Positions 4,853 to 21,098 of a stretch of DNA of 39,032 nt are shown here, piece after piece (position 1 is the stretch's first letter; the number at the start of each line of letters is the position of its first letter). The notes under the pieces were generated by a model that saw only the letters and a program-made list of their open reading frames with translations, made no database searches and was not told where the DNA came from. The DNA lies in the NCBI GenBank assembly GCA_016839765.1, contig JAEOTP010000040.1, positions 1 through 39,032 on the forward strand, in the 5' to 3' direction. The position numbers were made by a program, and so were the translations under genes. The DNA comes from Promethearchaeota archaeon. Its GTDB lineage: Archaea; Asgardarchaeota; Lokiarchaeia; Sigyniarchaeales; SOKP01.

Positions 4853-5806
4853 ATGACGGAAGAGGCTAAATTTGAACATATAAAAATTGATTGGCCACCA
4901 TTGAAAGATGAAGAAGGAAATGTGATTCGCGAAGGAACCATTGATGGAAATTATGCTGTGATTTCAATTAATCGACCAGACAGATTAAATGCTTTAACTG
5001 AACAAACGGTCGCAGAAATTTCTCGAGCCCTCAGAATCATGGAAATGGATGGATCAATTCGAGCTGTAGTTTTGAGAGGCACGAAAGATTTTACAAAAAA
5101 GCCTGCTTTTTCGGCGGGTGCAGACCTCGCAGCAATGGTGGATCCAAGATTAAAAATGAATGTTCCCATGCATATGAGTATGGCAATGAGAATAAGACAT
5201 CGAGAGTACGACGAGATGGAACAATTTTCCAAACCTTTAATTGCTGCTGTAGATGGATTTGCTTTGGGCGGAGGATTCGAAATAGTTTTAACTTGCGATA
5301 TTGTTATTGCAAGTGATAGAGCCATTTTTGGGACACCAGAGATCCATCGTGGAATTTTTTCATCAAATGGAGGAGTTACAAGATTAACTGAAAGAATTGG
5401 ACTCAATAGAGCCTTGCGCGTAGGTTATTTTGGAGAACAATTTGATGCAAAAATTATGCTTGATTGGGGTTTGGTGACTTGGATGGCTCCTGCTGGAGAG
5501 GAATTCGAAAAACTAGTTCATGAAAAGGCAAAATGGCTCAGTGATGCTCCAACAACTGCTTTATTTATTATAAAGAAATGCGTCAAGTTTGGAACCCGAT
5601 ATCCACAATTAGGAATTATGATGGAGCAACTTGGTTTTGGCGTTAATAGCGCAAGTTTTGATTCTAAAGAAGGAATTGCGGCATTTAACAGGAAAGTCAG
5701 ATGTCCTGTCTGCAATGGTAAGGGCAAAATGGAAGATGGTAGTGCTTGTAAAAATTGTGGAGGAAGAAAAAGAATAAAGGACACTCCACACTTTAAAGGT
5801 CTTTAA
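4853..5806 (+). CDS. Enoyl-CoA hydratase/isomerase with C-terminal CxxCxGxG zinc-type tail
   Basis: A 317-residue crotonase-superfamily enzyme. The oxyanion-hole loops are FSAGADL (residues 86-92) and GGGFE (139-143). Both crotonase catalytic glutamates are in place: Glu143 in GGGFE and Glu163 in TPEI. This supports hydration of 2-enoyl-CoA to 3-hydroxyacyl-CoA, the step before the upstream dehydrogenase. Unusually, the crotonase domain is followed by CPVCNGKG (284-291) and CKNCGG (299-304), the paired Cys-x-x-Cys-x-Gly-x-Gly style of DnaJ zinc fingers. The family normally ends near 260-270 residues, so this is an added mini-domain of about 35 residues. It probably binds zinc and may mediate protein contacts; its role is unknown. 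Confidence 0.93.
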   Translation: MTEEAKFEHIKIDWPPLKDEEGNVIREGTIDGNYAVISINRPDRLNALTEQTVAEISRALRIMEMDGSIRAVVLRGTKDFTKKPAFSAGADLAAMVDPRLKMNVPMHMSMAMRIRHREYDEMEQFSKPLIAAVDGFALGGGFEIVLTCDIVIASDRAIFGTPEIHRGIFSSNGGVTRLTERIGLNRALRVGYFGEQFDAKIMLDWGLVTWMAPAGEEFEKLVHEKAKWLSDAPTTALFIIKKCVKFGTRYPQLGIMMEQLGFGVNSASFDSKEGIAAFNRKVRCPVCNGKGKMEDGSACKNCGGRKRIKDTPHFKGL

Positions 5807-5850: not shown

Positions 5851-6405
5851 ATGTGGCATGATATCAATATTGTAGAAGAAATTAATGATGGAACTCTTTT
5901 CTTAAGAAAAATATCTAAAGAAGATAATCATTTTTTTTATGAGAGCTTAAAGGATAAGAATATAACTGATTATTTATCTTTAGGTCCTTTAAGATCATTA
6001 GATCATTCAAAAAGTTTGATTAAAAATTATCTAAAGTATTGGGATAAATACATCCAATTCAATTACATAATAGAATTTAGAGAAGGTTCTAAACCTCTCA
6101 AGATTGGCTCTGTAAGTTTATGGAGCTTAAGTTGGCAGCACAAGAGAGCCGAAGTTGGAGTATGGCTTATTCCAAATTATTGGAAAAAAGGAATTGGTAA
6201 AAGCACTCTAGAAATGATAAAAAACATAGCATTTTCTCATCTTAAACTTAATCGGCTTCAAGCACATATCGCTTTAAAAAATTTAAGGTCAATAAATGCT
6301 TTTAGAAACTCTGGGTTTAGAGAGGAAGGAATTTTGAAAGAATATCTAAATTTGAATGGTAACTTTCATGATGCTATTATATTAGCATGTTTAAAGGAAG
6401 TTTGA
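5851..6405 (+). CDS. GNAT-family N-acetyltransferase (RimJ/RimL type)
   Basis: A 184-residue acetyl-CoA-dependent acetyltransferase. The N-terminal strand LFLRKISKED, the central AEVGVWLIPNYWKKGIGKS (acetyl-CoA pyrophosphate loop around 111-117) and the late strand-helix LNRLQAHIALKNLRSINAF plus SGFREEGILKEY are typical of the RimJ/RimL branch, which acetylates protein N-termini or small molecules. The substrate cannot be told. The gene is preceded by a T-rich stretch, and its last 15 bases overlap the 3' end of the convergent longin-like gene. Confidence 0.88.
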   Translation: MWHDINIVEEINDGTLFLRKISKEDNHFFYESLKDKNITDYLSLGPLRSLDHSKSLIKNYLKYWDKYIQFNYIIEFREGSKPLKIGSVSLWSLSWQHKRAEVGVWLIPNYWKKGIGKSTLEMIKNIAFSHLKLNRLQAHIALKNLRSINAFRNSGFREEGILKEYLNLNGNFHDAIILACLKEV

Positions 6406-6816
6406 CAATAAAGACCTTATTCCCTTAGATTTTAATACTTCTTCAAGATCATTTGAAAATGATTTAAAAATATTAATATTTCCATTAAAATCTATTAAAT
6501 AGCGCTTAAATTTGGCGATAAATTTATCAAAAATTTCCTGTGCTAACCGATCAATTGATTTTTTCCTCGTATTTTTATCATCCACTTTCACAATCAAATG
6601 ACATAGTTTTTCTGGATGAGTATAAAAATAAAATTCACTTTTATTTAATTTTAAAGTGACTAGACTTTCGCTAAAACGGTATTTAGTAAATCGACAAATT
6701 TGATCAAAATAACTAGCAATTAAGCGGTAATCATATTTCTCATTAAAATTACCGTCTAGTGTATGATTAAACAATGGAATTCCTGTATTAGATAAAATAA
6801 TGATTTCTTGGATCAA
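6391..6816 (-). CDS. Longin-like small protein (tentative)
   Basis: A 141-residue protein with a start that reads as the longin fold: strand MIQEIIILSNTGIPLF, a helix DYRLIASYFDQICRFTKY, paired strands (SLVTLKLNKSEFYFYTHP, LCHLIVKVD) and a long helix with IDRLAQEIFDKFIAKF. Longin and related domains in eukaryotes occur in SNAREs, adaptor complexes and TRAPP, and they are expanded in Asgard archaea. The fold call rests on secondary-structure pattern only, so I hold it loosely; a roadblock-like relative is possible. The start is TTG with no in-frame ATG available upstream. It is the last of a minus-strand run after the two helical proteins, separated from them by about 120 bases. Confidence 0.5.
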   Translation of the reverse strand: MIQEIIILSNTGIPLFNHTLDGNFNEKYDYRLIASYFDQICRFTKYRFSESLVTLKLNKSEFYFYTHPEKLCHLIVKVDDKNTRKKSIDRLAQEIFDKFIAKFKRYLIDFNGNINIFKSFSNDLEEVLKSKGIRSLLSNFL

Positions 6817-6933: not shown

Positions 6934-8082
6934 TTACCTTGTTTTTGTAAAATTTACTAATTTTTCTCTAATTTCTTTAAATTTATTTAGTGCTAATGAA
7001 AAATCTCCTTTATCTAATGCGCTTAATGCCTCTTTATTCATAGAAATAAGGTTTCCTCTGAGGTTTTCAAATTTATCATATGCTTCAATTTTAGATTCAA
7101 TATCTGCAATGTATTTAGAATATTTATCCACATAATTTAATTTTCCAATGAATCTTGATATTTTTATAATTTGCTTACAATTATTTATAGCGTCATTAAA
7201 TAAGAAATTTTTAATATTTTGTTCGATTAAATTCTCTAGGCTTTCGATATCTTTTATAAGTTTATTATACTTTTGTTCCGCATCAAGGATTGATCTCTCT
7301 TTAATTTTTAACTCTTTTTGATAATCAGGAAAGGATTTCTCTTCAATTATTTGGTTTATAGAATTTAATAATTTTTTAGCTTCATCAAATTTATACTCAT
7401 CTGTTAATTTTGTAATTTCTTCCATTGAATTTTCAATTTCCTCTCGAAAATCATAACTAGTCTTAAGTTCAGTAAACATAGCTTCCATTGTCCCCCATCG
7501 TTCCAATAAAGCAGTATTCTTAAGGTTTTTTAAAAGGGGTTTTGCTTTTTGGAGAGTTTCCCTTGATAATATTACGTTATTAGTGCTTAAATAACTTTCT
7601 AATTGTATTTCCAGCGGTTCTAATTGGCTTTTTATTTTATTTTGCTCAGTAGAATATCTATTCCAAATTTTCTGTTCTTCTTCAAATAATTCTTTTATTG
7701 ATAAGTTTGGACTTAATTCAATTATTTTATCATATTTTTGCTTGAATTTTTCAACTACTCCATGAGCTTCCTCAAATCTTTTATTATTAGATAATTCTTC
7801 AAATATAATTTTTAAATCTTCAAAATCGTCAACGATAAAAGATTTTTGGTCTTCTTTTTCAATAATTTGATATATATTGGTTATAAATTTTTCTTGTTCC
7901 CTTATTATAGAATTCATTTCAACTTTTTTTGCATGGTCAATAATTTCTTTTGCGGTTTTTATAGCATCATCATATTTGCCCATAAGGTAATGATTATTTG
8001 CAATTACCTTTAACTCGTCAATCTCTGAAATAATGATGATCTTTTTTTTCCTATCTTCCAATCTTTCTGGCTCTAAACTCAT
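6934..8082 (-). CDS. Helical-repeat/coiled-coil protein related to the gelsolin-headed neighbour
   Basis: A 382-residue, highly charged, almost wholly helical protein without signal peptide or membrane segment. It begins with TPR-like hairpins (HYLMGKYDDAIKTAKEIIDH near residues 30-50) and continues as coiled coil. Segments such as FEELSNNKRFEEAHGVVEKFKQKY correspond in order to segments of the next gene upstream (FDNLNKAEEYKEAHKIVMEFRKKY), so the two are probably paralogues, this one lacking the gelsolin-like head. ATG at 8082 is chosen; a GTG three codons earlier (8091) is possible. Only 21 bases separate it from the upstream gene, so they are likely co-transcribed. Function unknown; a structural or scaffold role is an inference. 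Confidence 0.7.
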   Translation of the reverse strand: MSLEPERLEDRKKKIIIISEIDELKVIANNHYLMGKYDDAIKTAKEIIDHAKKVEMNSIIREQEKFITNIYQIIEKEDQKSFIVDDFEDLKIIFEELSNNKRFEEAHGVVEKFKQKYDKIIELSPNLSIKELFEEEQKIWNRYSTEQNKIKSQLEPLEIQLESYLSTNNVILSRETLQKAKPLLKNLKNTALLERWGTMEAMFTELKTSYDFREEIENSMEEITKLTDEYKFDEAKKLLNSINQIIEEKSFPDYQKELKIKERSILDAEQKYNKLIKDIESLENLIEQNIKNFLFNDAINNCKQIIKISRFIGKLNYVDKYSKYIADIESKIEAYDKFENLRGNLISMNKEALSALDKGDFSLALNKFKEIREKLVNFTKTR

Positions 8083-8103
8083 TAAAAACACAAATAAAAA
8101 AAT

Positions 8104-9150
8104 TTATTCGATAAATTGTTCTAATCTATCAATAATTTCGTCATAAATATCTATAGCTTTTAATATATTACGTTTTTTAAGAAAGTTAAGTGCATTATCA
8201 TTTAATTCTTCAAGTTCTTTCTTTTTAAGTTCCTTTATTTTTAAATAATTATTCCTTAATGAATCCCACTTATTTGTTATCTCTTTATCAATTACTTTAT
8301 CTGTTAAACTTTTATTTTCTTCTAAAATTCTTTCTGCTTGATTTAATTTGTTAATTGATATTAAACTCTCTATTTCATTTTCTAACACATCAATTTTGGC
8401 TTTTAGTAATTGTTCTTCTTGCCTTAAATTATAAAGCATATTTTCATCTTTTAATAGCAATTCTTGGGCTACTGATATTGAAAGCAAGTTATAATCGCGT
8501 TCGTATTTTTTTCGGAACTCCATTACTATTTTATGAGCTTCTTTATATTCTTCAGCTTTATTTAAATTATCAAATATTTGCATTTTAATTCTACATTCAT
8601 TTTCAATTTGATCTATTACCTCTTTAGCTTTCGCTCTAGACTTTGCCTCTTCAATAAAATTGAGGAGATTTATTTCGAGAGACTTATCATCAATTTCTTT
8701 TGCTAATTCTATAATTTTTTGAGCAAAAATAATTGACTTTTCATATTTTTCTGAAATGAAATTTTTATCTGCCTCATCTTTTAATCGATTTATTCCAGAT
8801 AATACTGGGAGTAATTTTGTTTCTAATTCATTAAGATACTCCCTATACTTCTCTTCTGAAATTTCAATAGCTTCAAAAAATGCTAAAGGTTCAGAACCAA
8901 ATTCTACGGTGAAATTACGTAGGATTTTTAAATTAGGATAATCTCTTAGAAATATTTCTCGAATCGAAGGAATATGACTTTTTAATGACTGAGGAGCTTT
9001 TTTACTAATCCAAATATACATGCGTCTTTGATTTAAAAGATAAAAAGTTAAAATATCAAATAATGTGAAACTTGTTAATATATCTTCTTGCGAAATCTCT
9101 TCTAAATTTCCAGAATACGTTAATTTAAAGACTTTAATATTGTCAATCAA
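8104..9150 (-). CDS. Gelsolin-like domain fused to helical repeats
   Basis: A 348-residue protein. Residues about 1-95 resemble a gelsolin repeat: IKVFKLTYSGNLEEI, then FDILTFYLLNQRRMYIWISKKAP (31-53), a helix (PSIREIFLRDYPNLK) and the closing strand VEFGSEPLAFFEAIE. The remaining 250 residues are helical, with TPR-like EADKNFISEKYEKSIIFAQK and long coiled coil. The start is TTG with a stop codon directly upstream in frame. Gelsolin domains in Asgard archaea bind and remodel actin filaments; this arrangement (one head plus a long helical stalk) would suit linking filaments to a partner, but that is inference. It lies just downstream of the four surface-protein genes on the same strand. Confidence 0.7.
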   Translation of the reverse strand: MIDNIKVFKLTYSGNLEEISQEDILTSFTLFDILTFYLLNQRRMYIWISKKAPQSLKSHIPSIREIFLRDYPNLKILRNFTVEFGSEPLAFFEAIEISEEKYREYLNELETKLLPVLSGINRLKDEADKNFISEKYEKSIIFAQKIIELAKEIDDKSLEINLLNFIEEAKSRAKAKEVIDQIENECRIKMQIFDNLNKAEEYKEAHKIVMEFRKKYERDYNLLSISVAQELLLKDENMLYNLRQEEQLLKAKIDVLENEIESLISINKLNQAERILEENKSLTDKVIDKEITNKWDSLRNNYLKIKELKKKELEELNDNALNFLKKRNILKAIDIYDEIIDRLEQFIE

Positions 9151-9286: not shown

Positions 9287-11014
9287 CTAAATATTGATTT
9301 TATCATTTGATGATTTTAGCGTTTCTTTGTCAATTTTTCCTAAAATTTTTTCTCTTAATACTTTACCATTAATTGGGGTACCTTTTAGAAATTTTGATGA
9401 TTTTTTCAATTCTGCCTGATATTTGGTATTAAACGCCTTTTCACGCTTAATAATTGGCTTATTGGGAGGCTCATCTTTGTTTAGAGAACTCCGATATTTA
9501 CGAATTTTTCTAACTGGAACAGGATATTTTAAATATAATTGATACGCGATAAGATAAGCACCTAAAATGACTGCACCAATACTTACTATTATAAATAACC
9601 CACTAAATAACCATGGCTCTGAGATTGGATCAGGAATAGTTTCTATATATGAAATTTCTAAAAAAACATCATCTAATGATAGGACAATATTTCTATCCAA
9701 GCGAAACTCATCTGCAAGGAAAACTTGAATAGAGAGATTCATTTTTTCATATGGATACATTATATCATATTCCATAAGGTCATACCCCTCGGGTTTTGCT
9801 TCTTGAAATGACGGTGAATATATATAATCAATTAACCAAATATACTCTTTATGTTCTCGATTGTTAATTAGAATCTTAATTTTAGAATTTTGTGATGCTG
9901 AAGTCCAATTTTGATCAATTTTATACTTGAATTTTAAATTTGCTTTAGTGATTTCAACGTTAGTACCGTTAATCTCTCTTAGTTCTTGATTCCAAGAAAC
10001 ATGGGTAGATTTATCCATTTTCTTTTCATATGTAAAAGTAAGATTACAGGATTTAATGAGTAATGAATACCATACGTCTAATTCATAATGCTCATAATTA
10101 TCTTCACTATCTATTTCTATCCCTAAAGTAACAGTAAAATTATAAGGATCATATTCAAAAACCTTATTAAGATTATAAATAAAGTCGTCTTCACTTATTG
10201 GTATCATAGAAGTATCGTTCAAAAAAGTCCTTGTAGTATAACTATAATCCCTACGTTCCGCAGTTCCATTGCCTAAATCATCTGTTCGATATGAAGCTAC
10301 TCTATAGGGCTTTTTATTTTCTAAATCCGAAATTTCTACATAAAAAAATGCATGATCATATAAAGATGCATAGGCATCACCACCGGAATCATCCCAAAAA
10401 ACACTATTAGAAGTTTCAACATCTTGATCTGCACTTCCAGCGACAATAGACGAAATTGAAGCAGTGGTAATTACATAATCTGACATATCAACTGTCATTG
10501 TAATGTTTCTTTTCCATAGGACTCCTGCTAGATTTGCAGTTTGATCTCCTGAATTCGGAAAAGGACCAGAACTATCTTCATCATATACATGTGACACATT
10601 ACATCCAAAATTACTATTAATTTCATGTGTCACAGGTAAAGGGCGAATAGAATGATTTACTTCAATCCAACCATCTTCTGGTTTAGGTACACCCGAGATA
10701 TCATCAAAAATACCATAATTCCCTAATACTTCAAAATTCACATGGCCTAGACTGGTAGATGTACTGGTGTCAGTCAAATCTCCCCCCTTATCCGAAAACC
10801 ATGTTGGCTCAATTGGATCTTCGAAAGTAGGATTAATTACCCATAGTAAATTCTCATATGGTATTACGCGTGAACTCTTAATATTAGGATAACTTTCAGT
10901 TCCATTTATGTATGAATTAAAATAAATCTGCGTAAAATGTAAATTCAAAATTAAAATAAATGAAACTAAAAGAAATATTAAAGCTATTCCGGATTTATTA
11001 AAAATTTTGCGCAT
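9287..11014 (-). CDS. Surface protein paralogue A: signal anchor, ectodomain, C-terminal TM and basic tail
   Basis: A 575-residue predicted membrane protein. A hydrophobic N-terminal segment (about 8-28) acts as signal or anchor; residues 30-465 are beta-rich, with many N-x-S/T sequons and the conserved Cys residues FGCNVSH and KSCNLTF, suggesting an extracellular disulfide. A membrane helix (about 466-492) precedes an 80-residue basic cytosolic tail with VRKIRKYR and REKAF. The start at 11014 follows GGAGGG by 10 bases and lies one base after the stop of the upstream paralogue, so translation is probably coupled; an ATG at 11032 is possible but would overlap. It is the last of four tandem paralogues. 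No enzyme motif is seen; adhesion, receptor or envelope roles are all open. Confidence 0.8.
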   Translation of the reverse strand: MRKIFNKSGIALIFLLVSFILILNLHFTQIYFNSYINGTESYPNIKSSRVIPYENLLWVINPTFEDPIEPTWFSDKGGDLTDTSTSTSLGHVNFEVLGNYGIFDDISGVPKPEDGWIEVNHSIRPLPVTHEINSNFGCNVSHVYDEDSSGPFPNSGDQTANLAGVLWKRNITMTVDMSDYVITTASISSIVAGSADQDVETSNSVFWDDSGGDAYASLYDHAFFYVEISDLENKKPYRVASYRTDDLGNGTAERRDYSYTTRTFLNDTSMIPISEDDFIYNLNKVFEYDPYNFTVTLGIEIDSEDNYEHYELDVWYSLLIKSCNLTFTYEKKMDKSTHVSWNQELREINGTNVEITKANLKFKYKIDQNWTSASQNSKIKILINNREHKEYIWLIDYIYSPSFQEAKPEGYDLMEYDIMYPYEKMNLSIQVFLADEFRLDRNIVLSLDDVFLEISYIETIPDPISEPWLFSGLFIIVSIGAVILGAYLIAYQLYLKYPVPVRKIRKYRSSLNKDEPPNKPIIKREKAFNTKYQAELKKSSKFLKGTPINGKVLREKILGKIDKETLKSSNDKINI

Positions 11015-11837
11015 TTTAATTGATCCCTCCATTTTTTTTCATTTGCTCTGTTGATTGATCAATTGACTTTTCTAGTAATGTTTCTTTTTTTATTTCTGCA
11101 AAGTTTTTGCCAATTTTATCATATTTTTCAGATTTTAAAATAGGTCTACTTTTCAAAATTTTCTTAGCTTTCTTTAATTCTTTTTGATAAGTTTCATCAA
11201 ACGCTTTTTCACGTTCTCGAATTGTTTTATGAGGTGCGTCCTCATTATTTAATGAACGCCGATACTTGCGAACTTTTCTTACTGGTTTCGGATATTTTAA
11301 AACTTTTTGGTATGCAATAAGATAGCCTCCCAAACTAGCAGCAATTATACTTCCTATAATTAGGAGTAGAAGAAATATTCCAGGTTCCGAGAATATATCA
11401 GGTTCATTCTCAATATATGATATTATAAGGTAAACATCCGTAATCGAAATTACAATTTTTTGGTCTAATCCAAAGTCTTCAGCCAAAAAAACCTGAATAG
11501 ATAGATTCATTTTTTCATATGGATACATAATATCATATTCCATAAGGTCATATCCATCGGGTTTTGCTTCTTGAAATGATGGGGAATAAATATAATCAAT
11601 TAGCTGAATATACTCTTTATGTTCTCGATTGTTAATTAGAATTTTAATTTTGGAATTTTCTGATGCTGAAGTCCAATTTTGATCAATTTTATATTTAACT
11701 TTTAAATTTGCTTTAGTGATTTCAACGTTAGTACCGTTAATCTCTCTTAATTCTTGATTCCAAGAAACATAGGTAGAGCTATCCATCTTCTTTTCATATG
11801 TAAAAGTAAGATTACAAGATTTAATCAATAATGAATA
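9727..11837. repeat. Near-identical 343-bp patch shared by paralogues A and B
   Basis: Positions 9727-10069 and 11495-11837 align without gaps at a constant offset of 1768 bases. By eye I count about 24 differences in 343, near 93% identity. The flanking parts of the two genes are much more diverged. The patch covers the second half of the ectodomain, from the KSCNLTF cysteine to the segment before the membrane helix. Confidence 0.8.
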
Positions 11838-12722
11838 AAAGATATCTAAATCAAAGAAATTGTAATTGTCTTCAGTGTAAATATCAATTCCTAATATAAT
11901 TGTAAAGTTATAAGGATCGTATTCAAAAACCTGATTCAAATAAAATATCAAATCTTCCTCATCATCATGAGTTATATAAGTGTCATTCAAATAGTCTATT
12001 GAACCTGGCCCATCTTTTCCTAAGTCTTCTGTTTTATATGATGCGATTCTACGTGGTGGTTCTTTATTTTCTAAATCTGAAATTTCAAAATAAAATATGG
12101 CATGATCATAAAAAGTAGCGAATCCAGAAAAGGAATCCGTTGGAGTTTCAAGGTTTCTATTAGCGCTTCCATTTATTATTGCGCTTAATGAAGCGGATGT
12201 TATGATATATTCTGTCATATCAACTGGCATAGTTATATTTCTTTTCCAATGTACACTGGGTCTGTTTCTTGATTGGTCAACACTCTCATCATAAGTATGG
12301 TTCGCCATACATCCTGTTCTATTATTGATTTCATAGTAATCTGGGAGTATAAAGTAAGAATTTTTCAATGCTTCCCAACTATCTTCTGGTTTCGGTATAC
12401 CTGAAACTTGGTTAAAAATTCTAGCTTCGCCTAAAAATTCAAAATTTGCCTGACCAGAGCTAGTAGTGGCATTGACATCTGCCAAATCTCCTTTTATCTC
12501 TGAAAACCAAGTAGGTTGGATAGGATCCTCAAAATTTGGATTTTCATTCCATAATAAATTTGAATGTGGAACAATACCAGAAAGATTTAGATTTTTTTGA
12601 ATTTGATTTTCTTTAGGATTTTGATTTAAATTATTATATTGAATAAATAATACTAAACAGAGAAATAACAAACTTATGCCAATAAGGCTTTTTTTTTTTT
12701 TTAACATCATTTTTGAATTCAT
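11016..12722 (-). CDS. Surface protein paralogue B
   Basis: A 568-residue protein with the same plan as its neighbour: N-terminal hydrophobic segment after a KKKK stretch (about 12-27), ectodomain with about ten N-x-S/T sequons and the conserved Cys pair (TGCMANH, KSCNLTF), a membrane helix around 455-480 (GIFLLLLIIGSIIAASLGGY), and a tail of about 95 residues with VRKVRKYRRSL and REKAF. The segment just after the N-terminus (NENPNFEDPIQPTWFS) has the look of a carbohydrate-binding-module style start, but this is only a resemblance. Its 3' half shares a nearly identical DNA patch with paralogue A. A GGTGAT lies about 17 bases upstream of the ATG; the 193 bases upstream may carry its own promoter. 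Confidence 0.8.
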   Translation of the reverse strand: MNSKMMLKKKKSLIGISLLFLCLVLFIQYNNLNQNPKENQIQKNLNLSGIVPHSNLLWNENPNFEDPIQPTWFSEIKGDLADVNATTSSGQANFEFLGEARIFNQVSGIPKPEDSWEALKNSYFILPDYYEINNRTGCMANHTYDESVDQSRNRPSVHWKRNITMPVDMTEYIITSASLSAIINGSANRNLETPTDSFSGFATFYDHAIFYFEISDLENKEPPRRIASYKTEDLGKDGPGSIDYLNDTYITHDDEEDLIFYLNQVFEYDPYNFTIILGIDIYTEDNYNFFDLDIFYSLLIKSCNLTFTYEKKMDSSTYVSWNQELREINGTNVEITKANLKVKYKIDQNWTSASENSKIKILINNREHKEYIQLIDYIYSPSFQEAKPDGYDLMEYDIMYPYEKMNLSIQVFLAEDFGLDQKIVISITDVYLIISYIENEPDIFSEPGIFLLLLIIGSIIAASLGGYLIAYQKVLKYPKPVRKVRKYRRSLNNEDAPHKTIREREKAFDETYQKELKKAKKILKSRPILKSEKYDKIGKNFAEIKKETLLEKSIDQSTEQMKKNGGIN

Positions 12723-12915
12723 AATAGAACTATATCACCATGTAGGTTTTTTTCGCTATTCTTATCTAAATAAAAAACCATTAACCATTATTATGGTAAC
12801 TATGTTGATCTTAATAATTTATAGTTTTAGTTATATACTTTACTCAATATAATGTAAAAAAATCAGATTTAAAAAGGAATATAAAGAATTTTTATTTTTT
12901 TATTGGTTTTTTAGC
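12723..12915. promoter_or_regulatory. Intergenic gap inside the surface-protein array
   Basis: This 193-bp gap is the only real break in the four-gene array, whose other junctions overlap or abut. It carries the repeated ACCATTA-ACCATTA followed by TTATGGT (12777-12797), giving a small imperfect palindrome (ACCAT 12784-12788, ATGGT 12793-12797) about 65 bases upstream of the paralogue B start. A second promoter for genes B and A is plausible, so the array may be two transcription units. Confidence 0.35.
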
Positions 12916-14553
12916 TTATTTTTTAAAAAGTTTATCTTTCTCAATTTTTCCATTAAGAGGAGGTCCTTTCAAAAATTTTGAGGTTCTACTTACTTCTTTA
13001 TGAAAACTACCTTTAAAAGCAGCTTCACGAGAAATAATCTTGACATCAGGGCCCTTCTCACTTGGTAAGGCTTTTCTATGTTTGCGTAGCTTACGAATAG
13101 GTACTGGAAATCTCCAAACTTTAATATATGCGATTAATAATCCCGATATCACAACGGCAGCTATAGCAGCGATAATGAATAATCCAGCATAGAACCAAGG
13201 TTGTTCTTCAGTTTCAGGTGTAAATACGGTATATGTGATTTGAAGTGAAACTTCTGTGATTGATAAAGTTAGATTTTGTATCAAAGGAAATTCATCTGCA
13301 AGGAATAATTTAATTGATAGAGTTATATTCACATCTTTTAATAACAAGTATGTCATATCAAATCCGCCCGTTTTAGCTTCTGTGAAGCTTAAACCCGCAG
13401 TGCTTAACTTTACAGACTCTAGAAGGGTATTATTATTAATAAAAATCTGTAGTTCTGAATTAGGAGATAATGATGTTGGCCAATTTTGATTAATCTTATA
13501 TTTAAATTTTAAGTTACCTCCAGTTATTTGCACATTATCCCCTGAAATAGTATTTCCTTTTTGATACCAGGATATTGTAGTGAACTGATCAATCTTTTTT
13601 TGGTAAGTGAAATTTAATTTGCACGATTTTATTAATAGATCATCCCATCTATCACGGTCACTCCACCAGTTATCTTCACACCATATTCTTACCCCCAAAG
13701 TAATAGTGAAATTATGATTATCACTAGATAAAACAGAAGTGAGGTAGAAAATCAAATCTTCTTGGGAAACATTTGCCATAAGAGTATCATACATATAATC
13801 ATAACTACCAGCAGAATCTTTTCCCAAATCTACGGTTTGATTGTAAGCGACTTCATAAACTTTTTCTTTTGTTAAATCTGATAATAATACATAAAATCTG
13901 ACATAATCGCCTATAAAAAATTGGGCATTATCACCTTGATTTGGCCCTGTTTGATCACCAGGAGTCTCTACGCCCCACCCTTGAGGAGAGCTAGAAATAG
14001 CACCCGGATATGCTGTAACAGTAGCATTCACTACTGCCGTAATAGAAGCTGAGGTTATAATGTAATCGGACATATCAACAGGGATTGTGATATTTCTATC
14101 CCAGTGCACACTTGGAGATTGATAGGCATCTTCATACCAATCATGTGAAACCCAACACCCTTCTGTTGTGATGTCAGAACTATCAGGATATGTTGGGAAT
14201 TCAGGATTATGGACTTTTGTCCATTCTGATAAAATTGGAGTTCCTGAAATTTCAGAAAATGTTCTTTGTTCGCCATAAATCTTATAGTTTGCTTGTCCTT
14301 CGGTAAATGTAGCATTAACATCTGAAGTATCACCGGATATTATAGAATTCCATGGATCTATTGTTCCAGAAAAATTATTATTATCTAACCATTCTTTTGT
14401 GAATTCGTCAATTGCAGATGTATTAATTTTTTGACTTATATCATTTCTAATTAGAGAATTTTGGTTTATGAAATAAAATGATAAAAAGAGTAAGCCAAGT
14501 ATTGTTAGGTAAATATATTTCTTTTTGATTCTAATTGTCTTATTCTTATTCAA
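12916..14553 (-). CDS. Surface protein paralogue C
   Basis: A 545-residue protein: N-terminal hydrophobic segment (about 14-29), long beta-rich ectodomain with sequons, three cysteines in TEGCWVSH, RIWCEDNWW and KSCKLNF, a membrane helix near 453-477 (YAGLFIIAAIAAVVISGLLIAY), then a tail of about 68 residues with IRKLRKHRKAL and REAAF. The third Cys is shared with paralogue D but not with A or B, so C and D form a subgroup. The start is TTG; its first T-T-G-A overlaps the TGA stop of paralogue D, and GGGGGTG (14564-14570) lies 10 bases upstream, which supports translational coupling and this rare start codon. Function unknown. Confidence 0.8.
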   Translation of the reverse strand: MNKNKTIRIKKKYIYLTILGLLFLSFYFINQNSLIRNDISQKINTSAIDEFTKEWLDNNNFSGTIDPWNSIISGDTSDVNATFTEGQANYKIYGEQRTFSEISGTPILSEWTKVHNPEFPTYPDSSDITTEGCWVSHDWYEDAYQSPSVHWDRNITIPVDMSDYIITSASITAVVNATVTAYPGAISSSPQGWGVETPGDQTGPNQGDNAQFFIGDYVRFYVLLSDLTKEKVYEVAYNQTVDLGKDSAGSYDYMYDTLMANVSQEDLIFYLTSVLSSDNHNFTITLGVRIWCEDNWWSDRDRWDDLLIKSCKLNFTYQKKIDQFTTISWYQKGNTISGDNVQITGGNLKFKYKINQNWPTSLSPNSELQIFINNNTLLESVKLSTAGLSFTEAKTGGFDMTYLLLKDVNITLSIKLFLADEFPLIQNLTLSITEVSLQITYTVFTPETEEQPWFYAGLFIIAAIAAVVISGLLIAYIKVWRFPVPIRKLRKHRKALPSEKGPDVKIISREAAFKGSFHKEVSRTSKFLKGPPLNGKIEKDKLFKK

Positions 14554-16217
14554 TTTTGCTCAGCACCCCCTGAAGTTTTTTCAATTGTTGTATTTCCCAA
14601 TTTATCGCTAATTTTAATAGATTTCTCTGTTGTACTTAATTTTAACAGCTTTGAAGTTGTACTTGTTTCTTTTTTAAAAACTTTATTGAAAGCGCTGTCT
14701 CTACTTGTAATACTTTTTGCCGGAGCAGACTCATTATTTAAGGTTTTTCTATATTTTCTAACTTTTCTTATAGGTATAGGATATTTCAAAATTCTTTGGT
14801 ACAAAATAAAGTAACCCCCTATTAAAGTTGCTGCGATAGCTGCAATTATCATCAACCAAAGAAAATATCCTGGTTCACCAGTTATATCTCCTAAGATTAT
14901 AAGATAGTATATCCATAATTCAGCATCATCAATAGATATAGTTAATGTCTGATTTAATAGGAATTCATCTGCTAAAAATATCTGTATTGAAAGTAATATA
15001 TCAACATCTTTTAACACTAAACTTGTAAGATTAAAGCCATCCACTTTAGCTTCTTGAAATTCAGTAATTGCTGACTTTAATTTGATTGTTTCTGGATGAG
15101 TATTATTATTTAATAAAATTCGAATTTCAGAATTCGGAGATAATAATTCTGGCCACGACTGATCTATTTTATATTTGAATGTCAAGAACGAGTTCGTTAT
15201 AATTTTATTTTCTCCACTTATGTCCTCACCTTCCTGATTCCAAGAAATTTTAGTGAATTGATCTATTTTCTTTTTGTAATCAAATGTCAAATCACATGCC
15301 TTGATTCTAAGAGAATCCCATTTGTCGTTGTCATAATTCCAATTATCAACACATTTAATTCTAATTCCTAGAGTAACTTTAAAGTGGAAGTTATCTCGGT
15401 CAAAAAGGGAAGTTAAATAGAAGATTAAAGCTTCTTCTAAAACTCTATTCATAAAACTATCTGCTATATAACTAATTTCTGGAAATTCATCTTGTCCTAG
15501 ATATGCAGTTTGGTACCAAGCTATTTCATATATCTCATTGCCTAGTAAATCTGATATTAATACGTAAAATCTTGCACTGTCATAATCTCCTGTTTGTGGA
15601 TATGTATCATTAATAGCATCTATTCCATAATTACTATTCTGTACTCCAGCACCCCCAGGCTTAGTGGTAACTGATGCATTAAAGACTGCTGAAACGGAAG
15701 CAGAAGTAATTACATAATCCGACATATCTACTGGCATAGTAATTATTTGCTCCCAATGAACACTCGTAGTTTGATTGGTATCATCAGGATCTTGCCATAA
15801 ATGGGAGGCTTTACATCCATGTTCATCTATTGTAACATTATCTGGTAAGACAGGAAAGAGTGGGTTAAGATTTTGTACCCAATCTTGAGAAGTGGGAGTT
15901 CCAGAAACTTCCGAAAAGGCTCTTTCATCTCCTAATATTTCAAAATTCGCTTGATTTGGTGTGTATGAAGTATTTACATCTGTTAAATCTCCTTCTTTTT
16001 GTGGAAACCAAGGCTGATAAGTACCAGAAAAACCTGGATTATCAACCCATAATCCTCCAGTAGGTATAGCAGTAGAACTTTTTAATTTTCTATCAATTTC
16101 ACTATATTGCAAATTTTGGTTTTGATTGAATTGGATTATTAATGCATTTAAAAGGATTAATGCGGTAATACAAAACAGATAAAGAATGATTTTTTTTTTC
16201 CTAAAAAATTTGATCAT
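14550..16217 (-). CDS. Surface protein paralogue D
   Basis: A 555-residue protein and the first gene of the array. It has an N-terminal hydrophobic segment after FFRKKK (about 10-26), an ectodomain with sequons and cysteines in HGCKASH, RIKCVDNW and KACDLTF, a membrane helix (GYFLWLMIIAAIAATLIGGYFI) and a basic tail of about 90 residues with IRKVRKYRKTL followed by SRDSAF. The ATG at 16217 is preceded by AAAGGTGA at the proper spacing; a GTG at 16226 falls inside that ribosome-binding sequence and is therefore rejected as the start. It is transcribed divergently from the winged-helix gene at 16521. No catalytic motif is seen. Confidence 0.8.
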   Translation of the reverse strand: MIKFFRKKKIILYLFCITALILLNALIIQFNQNQNLQYSEIDRKLKSSTAIPTGGLWVDNPGFSGTYQPWFPQKEGDLTDVNTSYTPNQANFEILGDERAFSEVSGTPTSQDWVQNLNPLFPVLPDNVTIDEHGCKASHLWQDPDDTNQTTSVHWEQIITMPVDMSDYVITSASVSAVFNASVTTKPGGAGVQNSNYGIDAINDTYPQTGDYDSARFYVLISDLLGNEIYEIAWYQTAYLGQDEFPEISYIADSFMNRVLEEALIFYLTSLFDRDNFHFKVTLGIRIKCVDNWNYDNDKWDSLRIKACDLTFDYKKKIDQFTKISWNQEGEDISGENKIITNSFLTFKYKIDQSWPELLSPNSEIRILLNNNTHPETIKLKSAITEFQEAKVDGFNLTSLVLKDVDILLSIQIFLADEFLLNQTLTISIDDAELWIYYLIILGDITGEPGYFLWLMIIAAIAATLIGGYFILYQRILKYPIPIRKVRKYRKTLNNESAPAKSITSRDSAFNKVFKKETSTTSKLLKLSTTEKSIKISDKLGNTTIEKTSGGAEQN

Positions 16218-16520
16218 GAAATTCACCTTTAAATACTTAATATTTTAATTATAAACCAACATATAGTTTAAATATTTTTAAATAAGCTAATAAAGTAAAT
16301 TTTATATTTAATTTAATTGTCAAAATATTTTACTTAATTATAGAATATAACATATCCATTTTCAATTATAAATTATTTGCAATCTTCGCAGTAATTCTTG
16401 ATAAAATAATGAATTTTAAATACTCTACTAGGTTAAATTTAATTTAATATATTACTTAAGAAATAATTATAAGAAAACAAAATTTAAAAAAATTAAAAAA
16501 TCTAAGAGCGCGACATCGAC
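16218..16520. promoter_or_regulatory. Divergent promoter region between surface array and winged-helix genes
   Basis: These 303 bases are strongly A/T-rich and without a credible gene. A minus-strand TATA-like TTTATAAT (16248-16255) faces paralogue D, and a plus-strand TTATAAG near 16467-16473 lies about 50 bases before the ATG at 16521. The only GC-richer patch is GAGCGCGACATCGAC just before that ATG. The shared region could let the winged-helix products control both directions, but no clear operator is visible. Confidence 0.4.
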
Positions 16521-17777
16521 ATGATTCAAGGAATATTGACTTTTAATTTTTTATTAAACCAAAATGAAACGACTGGTGAGATTAATCCAGAATTTAGTCC
16601 TATACAATTAGTTTTTCAAAATGAACAGTTCAATGAAGAAAATTATTTTGAATTAATTATTGAAAACGATATATTCGCTACATTTTATCAACACACAACT
16701 GGACTTTTTGGTACTAAGTATGGTTTTAGTAATTTTTATGAAGGCAAATTGAAAGAGACTCCTTATCAAGTGGTATCTTATTTCAAACAATTACCTGATG
16801 GTACTCAATATCTAACTACATCTATTTTCGAATTAGATGATGAGATTGAGCTTTTTGAAGATATACTTAAAGATATGGCAAAAAGATTAGATACTATCTT
16901 TGATAAATTAGCAAAAGCAACAAATACAAAACAGTTAGATTTGATTTCTAATGTAAATATTCGATTGATGAATGAATTAAAATATACTATTTTTCAAATT
17001 CAACGATTAAGTCAATTAGATAGACTTCAGAAAGTTGCATTGATATACAATAGCGACGTAAGATTGAAAATGTTGGAGACTTTACGAGATAGACCAATCT
17101 CCAAGGACGAAATGAAAAAAATTGTAGAAAAAATGAAACCTACAGCAAATATTGATATTCTTCTTCGTCCATTTGTTGAATTAAATTTAGTACGACGAGA
17201 TTGGATTAAGGGAGAGAAAGATAAAAAAACCGGAGTGATCAAAAATCAAGGAGAATATCTCTTTTTAATAAAAGACATAATGTTTTCGCGTATACCAAAT
17301 GAAAATTTGTTAAAACATTTTAAAGATACAAATAATGAATTAATAGAACCCTTTAAACAAAAAGCAATTGATTATTTTTCTCACTACGATCCTTATATAG
17401 AAGACGTTGAAGAAACAAAAAAACTAGCTTCAATTTTATTAAACCCCGACGTTTATGATTTTTTTGTATTGATGCGTTCCAATCATTATCCATTAGATAA
17501 AATTCCTAAGATTTTTAGCGAATTTGCGGTTACAGAGATTCTTTTAGATAATCTAAAAAAGCTTAATGTAATTACTGAGATAAAAGACGAAAATAAGAGA
17601 AGTTGGATATTACTGCTAACAGATATTAAACCTTTGACAATCTTTCCAGAGTATCTCCTCCCAAAAATCAGAGCTGCTTATAGAGATGAAGATTCAGATG
17701 GAAAAATAACCTATGAAGTTGCGAAAAAGGCGTTAGATTTATTAGAAGTATCTTATCCGGAGAAAGTGACATTTTAA
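16521..17777 (+). CDS. Large winged-helix protein with N-terminal alpha/beta domain
   Basis: A 418-residue soluble protein. Residues 1-125 make an alpha/beta domain (MIQGILTFNF ..., PYQVVSYFKQLPDGTQYLTTSIFELD, then a long helix) that may be a longin/roadblock-like sensor, though I cannot assign it. Residues about 165-255 look like a winged helix (VRLKMLETLRDRPISKDEMKKI ... LLRPFVELNLVRRDW), and a second such unit is likely at 300-385 (YDFFVLMRSNHYPLDKIPKIF ... LLDNLKKLNVITEI). This suggests DNA binding or a winged-helix scaffold. It is followed after 27 bases by the next gene, forming a likely operon, and is divergent to the surface-protein array. Function unknown. Confidence 0.65.
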   Translation: MIQGILTFNFLLNQNETTGEINPEFSPIQLVFQNEQFNEENYFELIIENDIFATFYQHTTGLFGTKYGFSNFYEGKLKETPYQVVSYFKQLPDGTQYLTTSIFELDDEIELFEDILKDMAKRLDTIFDKLAKATNTKQLDLISNVNIRLMNELKYTIFQIQRLSQLDRLQKVALIYNSDVRLKMLETLRDRPISKDEMKKIVEKMKPTANIDILLRPFVELNLVRRDWIKGEKDKKTGVIKNQGEYLFLIKDIMFSRIPNENLLKHFKDTNNELIEPFKQKAIDYFSHYDPYIEDVEETKKLASILLNPDVYDFFVLMRSNHYPLDKIPKIFSEFAVTEILLDNLKKLNVITEIKDENKRSWILLLTDIKPLTIFPEYLLPKIRAAYRDEDSDGKITYEVAKKALDLLEVSYPEKVTF

Positions 17778-17804: not shown

Positions 17805-19976
17805 ATGTATTTGTTCAAAGATAAAGATGTACTTGAAATCCCCTATTCCTGTAAGGTATGTTTAAAAGAAATAAAATTCAAGATAACAGCCGAAGAGTAT
17901 AAAGCTGTAGTTAAATTTCCGATTAAAAAAGAAATTTTACATGGAGACCCGCCTCATAAATTAATTATTTATCTAAATCAATACTTAGAAGTAGAAAACT
18001 TCGAAATTAAGGATGTTCTAAAAGTAGAAGAAGTTGCCTATTCAGAAGAGTTAACTAAACAAGTTTTGGGTGAAATTGGTTTAAATAATGAGGAAATTGA
18101 ATTATATTTCCGGACTACAGGAAGAGAAGCAGTTTCTATTGGTGAAATGGCACTTTTAATTAATAAACCAAAGGACTATTGTGAAGGAATAGCGAAGAAA
18201 TTTGTAGAAAAGGGATTATTCAAAGAAATTGTTGGAGCGAAACCTCATTACACTGCCTTACCTCCATATGCTGCATTAATTAGCCAATTACAAAAATTTC
18301 ATAAATATATCTCTAATATAAAAGCAAGTATCCCCTCCCAATTAAATAAATCATTTACAACAATAGAAACCACACCAGCTAAAGTAGCTCCAGCAGATTC
18401 TACTATGTTAATGAAAGAACTGAAAGATAACATGCTTTCTCAAATTCGTTCTCAGAAAAAAGAATTTGATGAGACTTTGGCAGTTATGGATCAAATTAGA
18501 GGAATTACAGAAGATATTTCAAAGCTGGAAGGAACCGCTCAAACTGTAACAACAGACCAGCTAGGTGATGTATCAAAGAAATTTGAAAATATTAACCAAA
18601 AAACTAATCAAATCATTAAAGGACAGATATCAGAATTAAAAAATGAATTTGACAATATTAAATCAACTGTATCTTCAAATTTGCAGAAACTTCGGTTGGG
18701 TGTTATTTCACAAACTGTTGATCAAGTACTTGAAAAAATAATTGATGCTAAATTAAAAGAAATTTCTGATGCGGTCAATGTGCAGCTAAGTGTTAGTCAA
18801 ATGGCCTTCTCAGATGAGTTAAAAAAAGCGACAACTGGAATTGATCCAGATGTTATTGCTAAGTTAAAGGATTCCTTACAAAGTACTATTCAAAATATTG
18901 ATGGACTTGCTTCAAAAGTGGAGGAAGATAAGGAGAAAATTTATGCTGATATTGCAGAAAACTTTAATAAAGCAGTAAAAGCTGCTGAAGATAAGATTGA
19001 GGGGATATCTGGAGGGGTTATTGAATCCTTTGGTGATATGAGGGATGTGTTTTCAAATCAAATCGTTTCAACTTTAAATAGTACTTTGGATGATATATTA
19101 CAGAAATTGGAAGTATCTGAAAGAGTGACAAGTGAATTCTGGAACCAAGCAAAAAAAGGGACTGGTTTTACCATGAAAGATATTTGGTTCATCAGGTCTC
19201 CTGAAAGTGCTAAAGCTCATATCAATGATGAAATTTCGAAAGCTAAAATGCGAATACTAATTGTTGCTCCCCAGTTAACCGATATTGATATAGAAGCAAT
19301 TAAAAATCGGCCTTCTCATATTAACTTTAGAATAGCTACCAGTATTGATCCAACAAATCCAACACACCAATCAATTATTGAGCGGTTTGATAGTATGGAT
19401 AATGTGGACTATAGACATCGAGCATTGCAAAATCTTTGGGGTATTAATAAAGATTATGAAGAAGTAGTTGTATGTGTACTTTCGAAAACCGAGATTAGAG
19501 GAGATGTTGTAACTGAAATTGCTGGAATAGGGAGCATAATTGAGGAACACATTAAAATCTTTGTCCCAATATTGGAGGATGCTTGGATGTCATCTAGAAA
19601 GGAAATAGTGCATGCCGTCAAAAAAGAAATTCTTGAAAAACCTGAGGCCCCAAAACCAGCTAAAAAGGTAAAACAAAAAGTTAAGGAAGAACCTCAAAGA
19701 GAAGTTCCCACTCCAAGTGTAGAAGCTAAATCCTTATTATCAAAACAATTTGATTTAGTCTCAGATGGCCTTGATAAGATGACTGGTCTTGAAATCTCTA
19801 AAGCCTTAGAGAAATTTCAAACTGAATACATCAATAAACAGGGTTATAATAGTGTTTTAAAAAATATTAATAACACTAGCAATGACCTGAAATCAAAAAC
19901 TTATGTACTTAGCCAACCAGAGAAAGAAGATTTAAAAATGAAAATGCAATTCTGGAAACAAAAGTTAAATCTCTAA
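17805..19976 (+). CDS. TrmB-like winged helix, long coiled coil and PLD-like domain protein
   Basis: A 723-residue soluble protein. The N-terminus carries one CxxC (YSCKVCLKEIKF, residues 15-26) and a HGDPPHKLIIYL segment. A TrmB-like winged helix follows (about 90-155: VSIGEMALLINKPKDYCEGIAKKFVEKGLF). Residues about 170-445 are coiled coil. Residues about 460-600 (WFIRSPESAKAHINDEISKAKMRILIVAPQLTD ...) resemble the C-terminal sensor domain of TrmB regulators, which has a phospholipase-D-like fold without needing catalysis. A Lys/Pro/Glu-rich linker and a helical end close it. GAGATGATG precedes the ATG at good spacing. The 270-residue coil is unusual for a transcription factor and suggests a structural or assembly role. 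Confidence 0.65.
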   Translation: MYLFKDKDVLEIPYSCKVCLKEIKFKITAEEYKAVVKFPIKKEILHGDPPHKLIIYLNQYLEVENFEIKDVLKVEEVAYSEELTKQVLGEIGLNNEEIELYFRTTGREAVSIGEMALLINKPKDYCEGIAKKFVEKGLFKEIVGAKPHYTALPPYAALISQLQKFHKYISNIKASIPSQLNKSFTTIETTPAKVAPADSTMLMKELKDNMLSQIRSQKKEFDETLAVMDQIRGITEDISKLEGTAQTVTTDQLGDVSKKFENINQKTNQIIKGQISELKNEFDNIKSTVSSNLQKLRLGVISQTVDQVLEKIIDAKLKEISDAVNVQLSVSQMAFSDELKKATTGIDPDVIAKLKDSLQSTIQNIDGLASKVEEDKEKIYADIAENFNKAVKAAEDKIEGISGGVIESFGDMRDVFSNQIVSTLNSTLDDILQKLEVSERVTSEFWNQAKKGTGFTMKDIWFIRSPESAKAHINDEISKAKMRILIVAPQLTDIDIEAIKNRPSHINFRIATSIDPTNPTHQSIIERFDSMDNVDYRHRALQNLWGINKDYEEVVVCVLSKTEIRGDVVTEIAGIGSIIEEHIKIFVPILEDAWMSSRKEIVHAVKKEILEKPEAPKPAKKVKQKVKEEPQREVPTPSVEAKSLLSKQFDLVSDGLDKMTGLEISKALEKFQTEYINKQGYNSVLKNINNTSNDLKSKTYVLSQPEKEDLKMKMQFWKQKLNL

Positions 19977-20066: not shown

Positions 20067-21098
20067 ATGGTACAAGAACTAATTACTGTGAATTCAGGGA
20101 AAATCAATGATTATCTCCATCATATAGACGCAAAAGCTTATGGACAACCGCGTAGACTATCAGTGTACCTAGCTGAATTTGATGATTGTTCAATCCTATT
20201 TGATTGTGGTTCATCTCTAGAGGTAAACAAATTAATAAGATATTTTAAAAAAAACCAAATTCGTTTAGACTCGTTTAAGTATCTTGTTCCATCTCATCAT
20301 CATTTTGATCATGCGGGAGGAATGCATCTTCTATATGATATATTGAAAAAACATAACCCCGATATTAAAATTTTGACAAATCAGAAGACTAAAGAGTTAC
20401 TTAATAACTATAAACCTCATTTAAGTAGAGCAAGGCGAACTTATAGTAATCTAGTTGGTACTATGAGCCCTATTGATGATGCTGCCTTTGAAATTATAGA
20501 GCCTAGTGCCAAATTTTATTCTGATCCTAATAAGCTTGAAATAATTAATAGGTTTTTAAAGAATGGAGAAGAACTCAAATTATGCATATTAAAAACACCA
20601 GGACACGTTCCCGATCATCAAACACCTTTATTTGTTAAAGATAGTGAAATTGATTTCATTTATTTAGGAGAAGCATCAGGAACAATTTATAACACATCAA
20701 AGTTATTAACAATGCCAGTCTCGATGCCCATATTTTATAATCATGCAGAATATATGCAAACACTGAGTAATCTTAAAAAAATTACTCCATTAAAAGCTGG
20801 TTTTGGGCATTTTGGAGTTATAAATGGTAAAGAAAATGTACGTAGAGTATTATTGGAACATGAAGAATTTATAACATTCTTCAAAGAAAGTATAATTAAA
20901 TATTATAACGAGAAACCAGAAACAAAATACGTTTTAAGTAAGGTAATGTCATTATTAAGTCCTAGAACAGATTTACCTTTTGAGTATGCGTCTATTTTTA
21001 ATGGAGTTGCATTAGGAATTGTATATGGTATGATGATATCATTAGGTTTTCGCTCTATTTCCGAACAGGAAAAGAAATTTTTTAAACGTTATTCTTAA
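20067..21098 (+). CDS. Metallo-beta-lactamase-fold hydrolase
   Basis: A 343-residue MBL-fold metalloenzyme. The metal-binding motif HHHFDHAGG sits in LVPSHHHFDHAGGMHLL (around residue 75), preceded by the strand ILFDCGSS. The later metal ligands are plausibly His in LKTPGHVPDH (the HVPDH style), a carboxylate in IYLGEAS and His in FGHFG. Such proteins hydrolyse thioesters, lactones or phosphodiesters, or act with flavoproteins; the substrate cannot be named. The C-terminal 90 residues are helical. It is followed after 43 bases by a geranylgeranyl-reductase-like gene on the same strand. Confidence 0.85.
   Translation: MVQELITVNSGKINDYLHHIDAKAYGQPRRLSVYLAEFDDCSILFDCGSSLEVNKLIRYFKKNQIRLDSFKYLVPSHHHFDHAGGMHLLYDILKKHNPDIKILTNQKTKELLNNYKPHLSRARRTYSNLVGTMSPIDDAAFEIIEPSAKFYSDPNKLEIINRFLKNGEELKLCILKTPGHVPDHQTPLFVKDSEIDFIYLGEASGTIYNTSKLLTMPVSMPIFYNHAEYMQTLSNLKKITPLKAGFGHFGVINGKENVRRVLLEHEEFITFFKESIIKYYNEKPETKYVLSKVMSLLSPRTDLPFEYASIFNGVALGIVYGMMISLGFRSISEQEKKFFKRYS

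Follow-up and report, generated by a model that had tools for sequence, protein, structure and literature searches.

What does an archaeon do with four large, related, membrane-anchored surface proteins encoded side by side? This question is raised by contig JAEOTP010000040.1 of assembly GCA_016839765.1, from a Promethearchaeota archaeon of the Lokiarchaeia, which we analysed as one stretch of 39,032 nucleotides (the window). An original prediction, made from the letters alone, had described there a tandem array of four paralogues, A to D, and suggested hetero-oligomers or a receptor/adhesin set. We found that the surface genes belong to a conserved module that also encodes cytosolic partners, WH418 and TrmBcc, with predicted winged helices, and that the tail, rather than the ectodomain, tracks these partners. 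The order of naming in the prediction is kept here; on the minus strand, transcription runs D, C, B, A. The features concerned are the following.

9287-11032, minus strand: surface protein A, 581 residues, second gene of the coupled B-A pair
11016-12722, minus strand: surface protein B, 568 residues, first gene of the B-A pair
12916-14553, minus strand: surface protein C, 545 residues, second gene of the coupled D-C pair, with a third conserved cysteine
14550-16226, minus strand: surface protein D, 558 residues, first gene of the D-C pair, with a third conserved cysteine; structure modelled
14553-14786, minus strand: basic cytosolic tail of D with the juxtamembrane motif KYPxPxRKxRK, whose presence tracks the cytosolic partner genes
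9290-9529 (A), 11019-11297 (B) and 12919-13113 (C), minus strand: tails with the same juxtamembrane motif
9748-9988, minus strand: A/B gene-conversion-like tract, 92-94% nucleotide identity, mostly 54-70% elsewhere
16434-16461, plus strand: conserved promoter-region element upstream of WH418, TAAATTTAATTTAATATATTACTTAAGA
16521-17777, plus strand: WH418, cytosolic, with an acidic N-domain (net charge −14) and two winged-helix-like regions, divergent from D
17805-19976, plus strand: TrmBcc, 723 residues, with a predicted TrmB winged helix, a long coiled coil and a conserved C-terminal region, divergent from D

The four proteins resemble one another end to end at pairwise identities of 40-61% (A/B 61%; A against C or D 40-41%; D/C 47%), confirming an array of consecutive paralogues with one plan: an N-terminal anchor, a beta-rich acidic ectodomain, a C-terminal membrane helix and a basic tail. 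Hydrophobic segments lie around residues 21-24 and 460-487; in C the second alone passes a crude cut-off. The ectodomains (about 400 residues) have an isoelectric point (pI) of 4.3 and net charges of −30 to −39. The tails are basic as predicted (pI 10.0-10.9, net charge +11 to +15), at a measured length of 65-93 rather than 70-95 residues. Protein lengths likewise came out at 545-581 instead of 545-575 residues, and the open reading frame of D begins at a GTG at 16226, the position previously given, 16217, being an alternative internal ATG start. Overlaps of 17 bases between B and A and of 4 bases between D and C make both pairs look translationally coupled, as had been proposed; the gap between B and C is 193 bases.

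Two cysteines are common to all four proteins and a third is confined to C and D, just as described earlier, and the reported richness in N-x-S/T is present as a modest excess (8-12 per ectodomain versus 4.0-5.3 in shuffled sequences, p 0.001-0.035). An AlphaFold2 (AF2) model of D, built with 28 relatives, has a mean predicted local distance difference test score (pLDDT) of 80. Its ectodomain (about residues 53-444) is nearly all strands, mostly at pLDDT > 90, consistent with the anticipated beta-rich fold; a long helix precedes it at the N-terminus and the membrane helix follows it at the C-terminus. The division into A/B and C/D subgroups stands, but the closeness of A and B was overstated, because their similarity is inflated by the shared conversion-like tract (A codons ~349-429, about 80 codons).

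Profile searches at cut-off level found no Pfam, NCBIfam, PHROG or PDB sequence family matching A-D, in line with the earlier failure to recognise a named family. These included archaeal S-layer families and domains (Pfam, NCBIfam; no related PDB sequence either) and Ig families (Pfam). An S-layer or enzyme identity was rejected because no profile matched, and a viral origin because searches of IMG/VR viral contigs, phage records and PHROGs found no relative. Relatives are present in 49 of 58 related genomes, at profile E-values down to 1e-248 that are far beyond chance, and in 54 of 196 genomes drawn from the whole phylum. GTDB genome contigs gave 91 hits in 71 loci, all in metagenome-assembled genomes (MAGs) named Lokiarchaeota/Lokiarchaeia, Prometheoarchaeum or Helarchaeota. 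The prediction had asked whether arrays of the same size and order recur: similar arrays do in related genomes, their size and order being variable.

Association of the tail with WH418 and TrmBcc

WH418 or TrmBcc lies nearby in 99 of 106 distinct intact family genes that bear the tail, and the remaining 7 are near a contig end, mostly within 3 kb. All of the 8 intact solitary paralogues, with a different cytosolic end, are without either partner. Three tail-less genes with a partner nearby are apparently one small fragment and two frame-broken split genes. The association of tail and partner gave a Fisher p of 1.3e-6, a value that overstates independence because the sequences are related. The solitary paralogues combine the same ectodomain with another conserved cytosolic end of ~230 residues; they are found at L041:5740-7911 (G000:C28), L056, L085, L090, L095, L096, L100 and L109 (labels beginning with L denote loci in public genomes compared with the window).

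WH418 homologues extend much further, to 136 of 196 Asgard genomes. Of 21 distant WH418 genes, 17 adjoin a large protein with a membrane segment at each terminus, versus 16 of 117 other genes in the same stretches (p 2e-9; counted over 15 hand-chosen loci, mostly of one class, with some genomes contributing more than one). The ectodomains of these neighbours do not match the A-D family, whereas the juxtamembrane segment does, mostly weakly. Moreover, L143, L160, L161 and L162 encode proteins of 1900-2670 residues in which the last membrane helix and the juxtamembrane segment lead straight into a fused WH418. Co-occurrence, adjacency and fusions together indicate that tail and WH418 work together at the inner membrane face. 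Their opposite charge (tails +11 to +15, WH418 N-domain −14) helps us to infer a direct contact between the two. The pairing is not universal, as WH418 has other neighbours in more distant classes; in family f8 genomes (L154-L158, L170), its neighbours form a conserved group of small membrane proteins in place of large ectodomain proteins.

Two sets of very large proteins were also observed. L160 (G034:C9:445500-465400) and L143 hold tandem series of about four proteins of nearly 2660 residues, each with a terminal fused WH418 domain. Giant members of 1227-1353 residues (L040:4460-8521, L043:2474-6175, L044:7636-11469 and L106:2524-6207) share the membrane helix and tail and carry repeated beta domains with weak Big_1 matches, some of them without the family ectodomain.

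Homologues of both partners occur beside surface genes in two layouts, divergent (as in the window) and co-directional. In many loci of the co-directional layout (L040, L106, L124), the surface genes are preceded by a gene for a 267-residue short-chain dehydrogenase-like protein. The clearest winged-helix support for WH418 is the match of a homologue (L138) to the ArsR-type family NF033788 at E 1.8e-8, and the first winged-helix region of WH418 (WH1) is basic, with a pI of 9.8; for the window copy, the designation is likely but not certain. TrmB (PF01978) is above the Pfam cut-off in a same-genome paralogue of TrmBcc (L040:1304-3307; E 4.5e-11) and in two other members, and the TrmBcc profile matches the solved TrmB 3qph at E 8.7e-6; the window TrmBcc alone gave no Pfam TrmB match at E ≤ 0.1. 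By eye, the C-terminal region of TrmBcc resembles the PLD-like domain of TrmB. A match of this protein to phrog_167 falls in the coiled coil and was set aside as uninformative. The idea that the promoter-region element defines a regulon was also rejected: its best matches are at the WH418 locus alone, and weaker ones were no commoner than in the control.

Ordered pairs and replaced ectodomain blocks

In the ectodomain tree, the C-type sequences fall in one supported clade and the D-type sequences in another, each represented in many genomes. Neighbouring genes of the two types repeatedly occur in a constant order, and fused one-chain doublets keep this order in several loci, which makes the heteromers suggested by the original prediction plausible. 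A C-terminal 'GG' in the first genes of pairs was considered as a ubiquitin-like tail and discarded; the D DNA before the C start reads GGGGGTG, and a ribosome-binding-site constraint is the simpler account.

We then compared the window genome (G000) with its nearest relative, G023. The partner genes were nearly unchanged, with nucleotide identities of 97.3% for TrmBcc (synonymous divergence, dS, 0.11) and 96.8% for WH418 (dS 0.16), as was a gelsolin-fold gene downstream of A (95.6%; dS 0.12 over the first 152 codons). By contrast, identities for the surface genes were 69.5% for D and 72.3% for C, with dS > 1. Measured in steps of 100 bases, identity to G023 was 88-100% for 18,300-16,101, mostly 50-80% for 16,100-13,201 and 92-97% for 13,200-12,801. 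Two replaced blocks were delimited.

13201-16100, minus strand: D ectodomain through C ectodomain, ~70% nucleotide identity to G023, with 92-98% identity on both sides
9500-12750, minus strand: separate A/B pair, versus a fused 1126-residue doublet of another clade in G023

In the second block, identity was lost over B and most of A and came back at ~9,500 in the tail of A, so that the last ~200 bases of A (9287-~9500) are 84-99% identical in G023 and the rest of A is unmatched. The block junctions lie close to where the N-terminal anchor of D ends, close to where the membrane helix of C begins, and inside the tail of A. Saturated synonymous change points to diverged alleles having been imported or exchanged rather than to point selection alone. 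Array composition is reshuffled between other near relatives as well, and gene sizes differ too. WH418 is 95% identical between L051 and L082, and the surface genes are at 42-43%; for L043 and L048, the values are 97% for WH418 and ~51% for the 550-residue genes. Between L068 and L069 (WH418 98%), one doublet is kept at 95% and the others are different.

Downstream genes and the possible role of the module

The module continues downstream of A with the following genes.

8104-9150, minus strand: protein of 348 residues with a gelsolin-fold N-terminal domain (residues 1-97) and a helical C-terminal part, downstream of A in the same direction
6934-8091, minus strand: TPR-like helical protein, 385 residues, a paralogue of the helical C-terminal part of the 348-residue protein
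6391-6816, minus strand: small conserved protein, 141 residues, at the module end

The N-terminus of the 348-residue protein matches 7c2f_B by profile (E 1e-4), and its AF2 model has the same entry, Thorarchaeota ProGel, as best Foldseek match (TMt 0.87). The top 50 matches listed are of the gelsolin family except for one Sec23/24 entry, and the protein has the gelsolin/ADF-H fold. A surface-gene tail is found within ~1 kb on the same contig in 17 of the 18 genomes that strongly match the gelsolin-fold gene, which there follows the array directly on its 3′ side; in the remaining genome, G021, the contig concerned has no surface-gene match. A longin identity, seen by eye for the 141-residue protein, the cytosolic end of the solitary paralogues and the WH418 N-domain, found no support from hhalign (17 columns, P 0.003) or PDB profiles and was dropped. 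Elsewhere in the window, 4853-5806 encodes a protein that looks by eye like an enoyl-CoA hydratase and ends in a CxxC...CxxC extension resembling a zinc finger, and 21142-22362 encodes a geranylgeranyl reductase family protein (TIGR02032, E 7.4e-47) that adjoins a metallo-beta-lactamase-fold gene (20067-21098).

With the family, its architecture, co-occurrence, fusions, the gelsolin fold and ectodomain block replacement all computed directly, we think it somewhat probable that A-D are a diversifying set of surface recognition receptors that dock, by their constant tails, on a winged-helix complex in the cytosol, with a link to gelsolin in this genus. A-D would be the outward-facing subunits of a Lokiarchaeia surface recognition system, each anchored at its two ends and exposing a beta-sandwich-rich ectodomain on the outside while a short basic tail reaches into the cell. 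The two products of a coupled gene pair would most likely form a heteromer. Its ectodomains would bind a variable ligand, most likely on other cells, such as those of kin or a syntrophic partner, or on viruses. Inside, the constant juxtamembrane/tail segment may engage WH418, which would work with TrmBcc to relay a signal or organise a site. The gelsolin-fold and TPR-like proteins, if co-transcribed with the array, would probably add a link to the actin cytoskeleton in this genus. As for the output, gene control and a structural or cytoskeletal role seem evenly matched: winged helices and the conserved promoter-region element favour the former, and the coiled coil, the fused giant proteins and the gelsolin-fold gene favour the latter.

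Several points weigh against such a receptor set. The winged-helix regions of WH418 are below curated cut-offs (34 bits versus 55 in L138, the window copy being weak), and the TrmB region of the window TrmBcc is not basic (pI 5.4). Ectodomain matches by Foldseek are weak (TM score < 0.3) and jelly-roll/carbohydrate-binding-like; a whole-length fold match was rejected at a root-mean-square deviation above 16 Å and kept as a hint of such sandwiches, so the ectodomain can be described as beta sandwiches and no further. The gelsolin link is limited to some genomes (in other genera the gelsolin-fold gene is located elsewhere, and many arrays are without one), and actin binding by the 348-residue protein is putative. 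Lastly, paralogous repeats could be mis-joined in MAG assemblies, though both flanks and several genome pairs agree.

How do other explanations fare with the same evidence? It is conceivable that A-D are membrane-tethered transcription sensors, a special case of the receptor reading in which the tails hold WH418 and a ligand releases or switches it to regulate genes with TrmBcc, as in a split ToxR/CadC. The ArsR-type match in a WH418 homologue, TrmB above its Pfam cut-off in the paralogue, the basic WH1 and the conserved element upstream of WH418, best matched at that one locus, all agree with this. The fused giant proteins, however, would keep their winged helices at the membrane permanently, and the element marks no regulon and is at most a putative operator. 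We consider it rather unlikely that A-D are structural adhesins forming an irregular coat or adhesive fibres, with the cytosolic partners as a scaffold to the cytoskeleton without signalling and the winged helices as protein-protein modules (cf. ESCRT-II). Large members with Big_1-like repeats, the adjoining gelsolin-fold and TPR-like genes, the very long coiled coil in TrmBcc and surface densities seen by cryo-electron tomography (PMC9834061) would fit a scaffold. But what stays constant across Asgard archaea is a winged-helix partner rather than a cytoskeletal protein, many arrays have no gelsolin gene, and fast ectodomain replacement suits recognition better.

Tandem paralogues with a signal-like N-terminus and a C-terminal anchor are common among archaeal envelope proteins. 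An ordinary S-layer or envelope protein expansion with functionally unrelated neighbours is nevertheless very improbable given the conserved basic tails of 65-93 residues, the partner co-occurrence and fusions, the lack of an S-layer family match and a Lokiarchaeum surface without an ordered S-layer (PMC9834061). We give equally little credence to array variation as an assembly artefact of repeated paralogues. Nearly all genomes are MAGs, the A/B tract is near-identical and the tails are alike; yet flanks are clean on both sides, reading frames intact and gene sizes different, in several genome pairs. Short-read assembly error is possible in any single case and does not easily account for the whole series of pairs.

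Cryo-electron tomography of Lokiarchaeum revealed an actin cytoskeleton and, on the surface, complex proteins but no ordered S-layer (PMC9834061); the tomograms are not of A-D themselves and indicate that proteins such as these have a place on the cell. The module is a concrete, widespread gene set that could encode Lokiarchaeal surface proteins. Its outside parts diversify fast, its inside machinery is constant and, in one genus, a gelsolin-fold gene lies beside the array. This makes the module a candidate, open to testing, for how the closest archaeal relatives of eukaryotes recognise other cells. More tentatively, the receptor reading may extend to a pan-Asgard mode of transmembrane signalling, in which interchangeable large ectodomains on a constant tail are read out by a tandem winged-helix protein devoted to this task; strains would exchange ectodomain blocks and, in one genus, a gelsolin module would be coupled directly. 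If true, this would be an archaeal recognition receptor connected to the cytoskeleton.

Comparison with known systems

A literature search, largely without subscription journals and preprints, found no description of the module. The nearest published system found is the VARTIG modules of Thermococcales (Makarova et al. 2021), which are archaeal, extracellular and recombining between strains (PMC8416519). Both are archaeal surface modules with a large variable extracellular protein and strain-level recombination, and self/non-self recognition is among the roles proposed for VARTIG (PMC8416519). Recombinational hypervariability of this kind was found here, ectodomain blocks being replaced between G000 and G023 within flanks at 97% nucleotide identity. 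The variable part of VARTIG, however, is a C-terminal Ig domain, and a C-terminal membrane helix is predicted in 8 of 30 VARTIG proteins; the VARTIG paper names no wHTH, winged helix or Asgard (PMC8416519).

Single components have known relatives. The N-terminal winged helix predicted for the TrmBcc family is that of TrmB regulators (PF01978; 3qph), whereas TrmBcc has a coiled coil of ~270 residues between the winged helix and the C-terminal region, and sugar binding by it is putative. Residues 1-97 of the 348-residue neighbour share the fold of the Asgard gelsolin-like proteins ProGel and 2DGel (7c2f, 7whf, 7whg); unlike these, that protein is fused to a helical/TPR-like part and sits beside a surface array, its actin binding being a prediction.

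Nearest in plan are membrane-bound winged-helix regulators. In ToxR/CadC-type and ArnR-type regulators, the outside domain and the inside winged helix belong to a single membrane protein. This one-component plan in a single chain is shared by the fused giants of L143 and L160-L162 alone; in the window it is split between two genes. By contrast with those regulators, the Asgard module usually consists of two genes and combines tandem C-terminal winged helices with very large variable ectodomains and a third partner, the coiled-coil TrmB protein.

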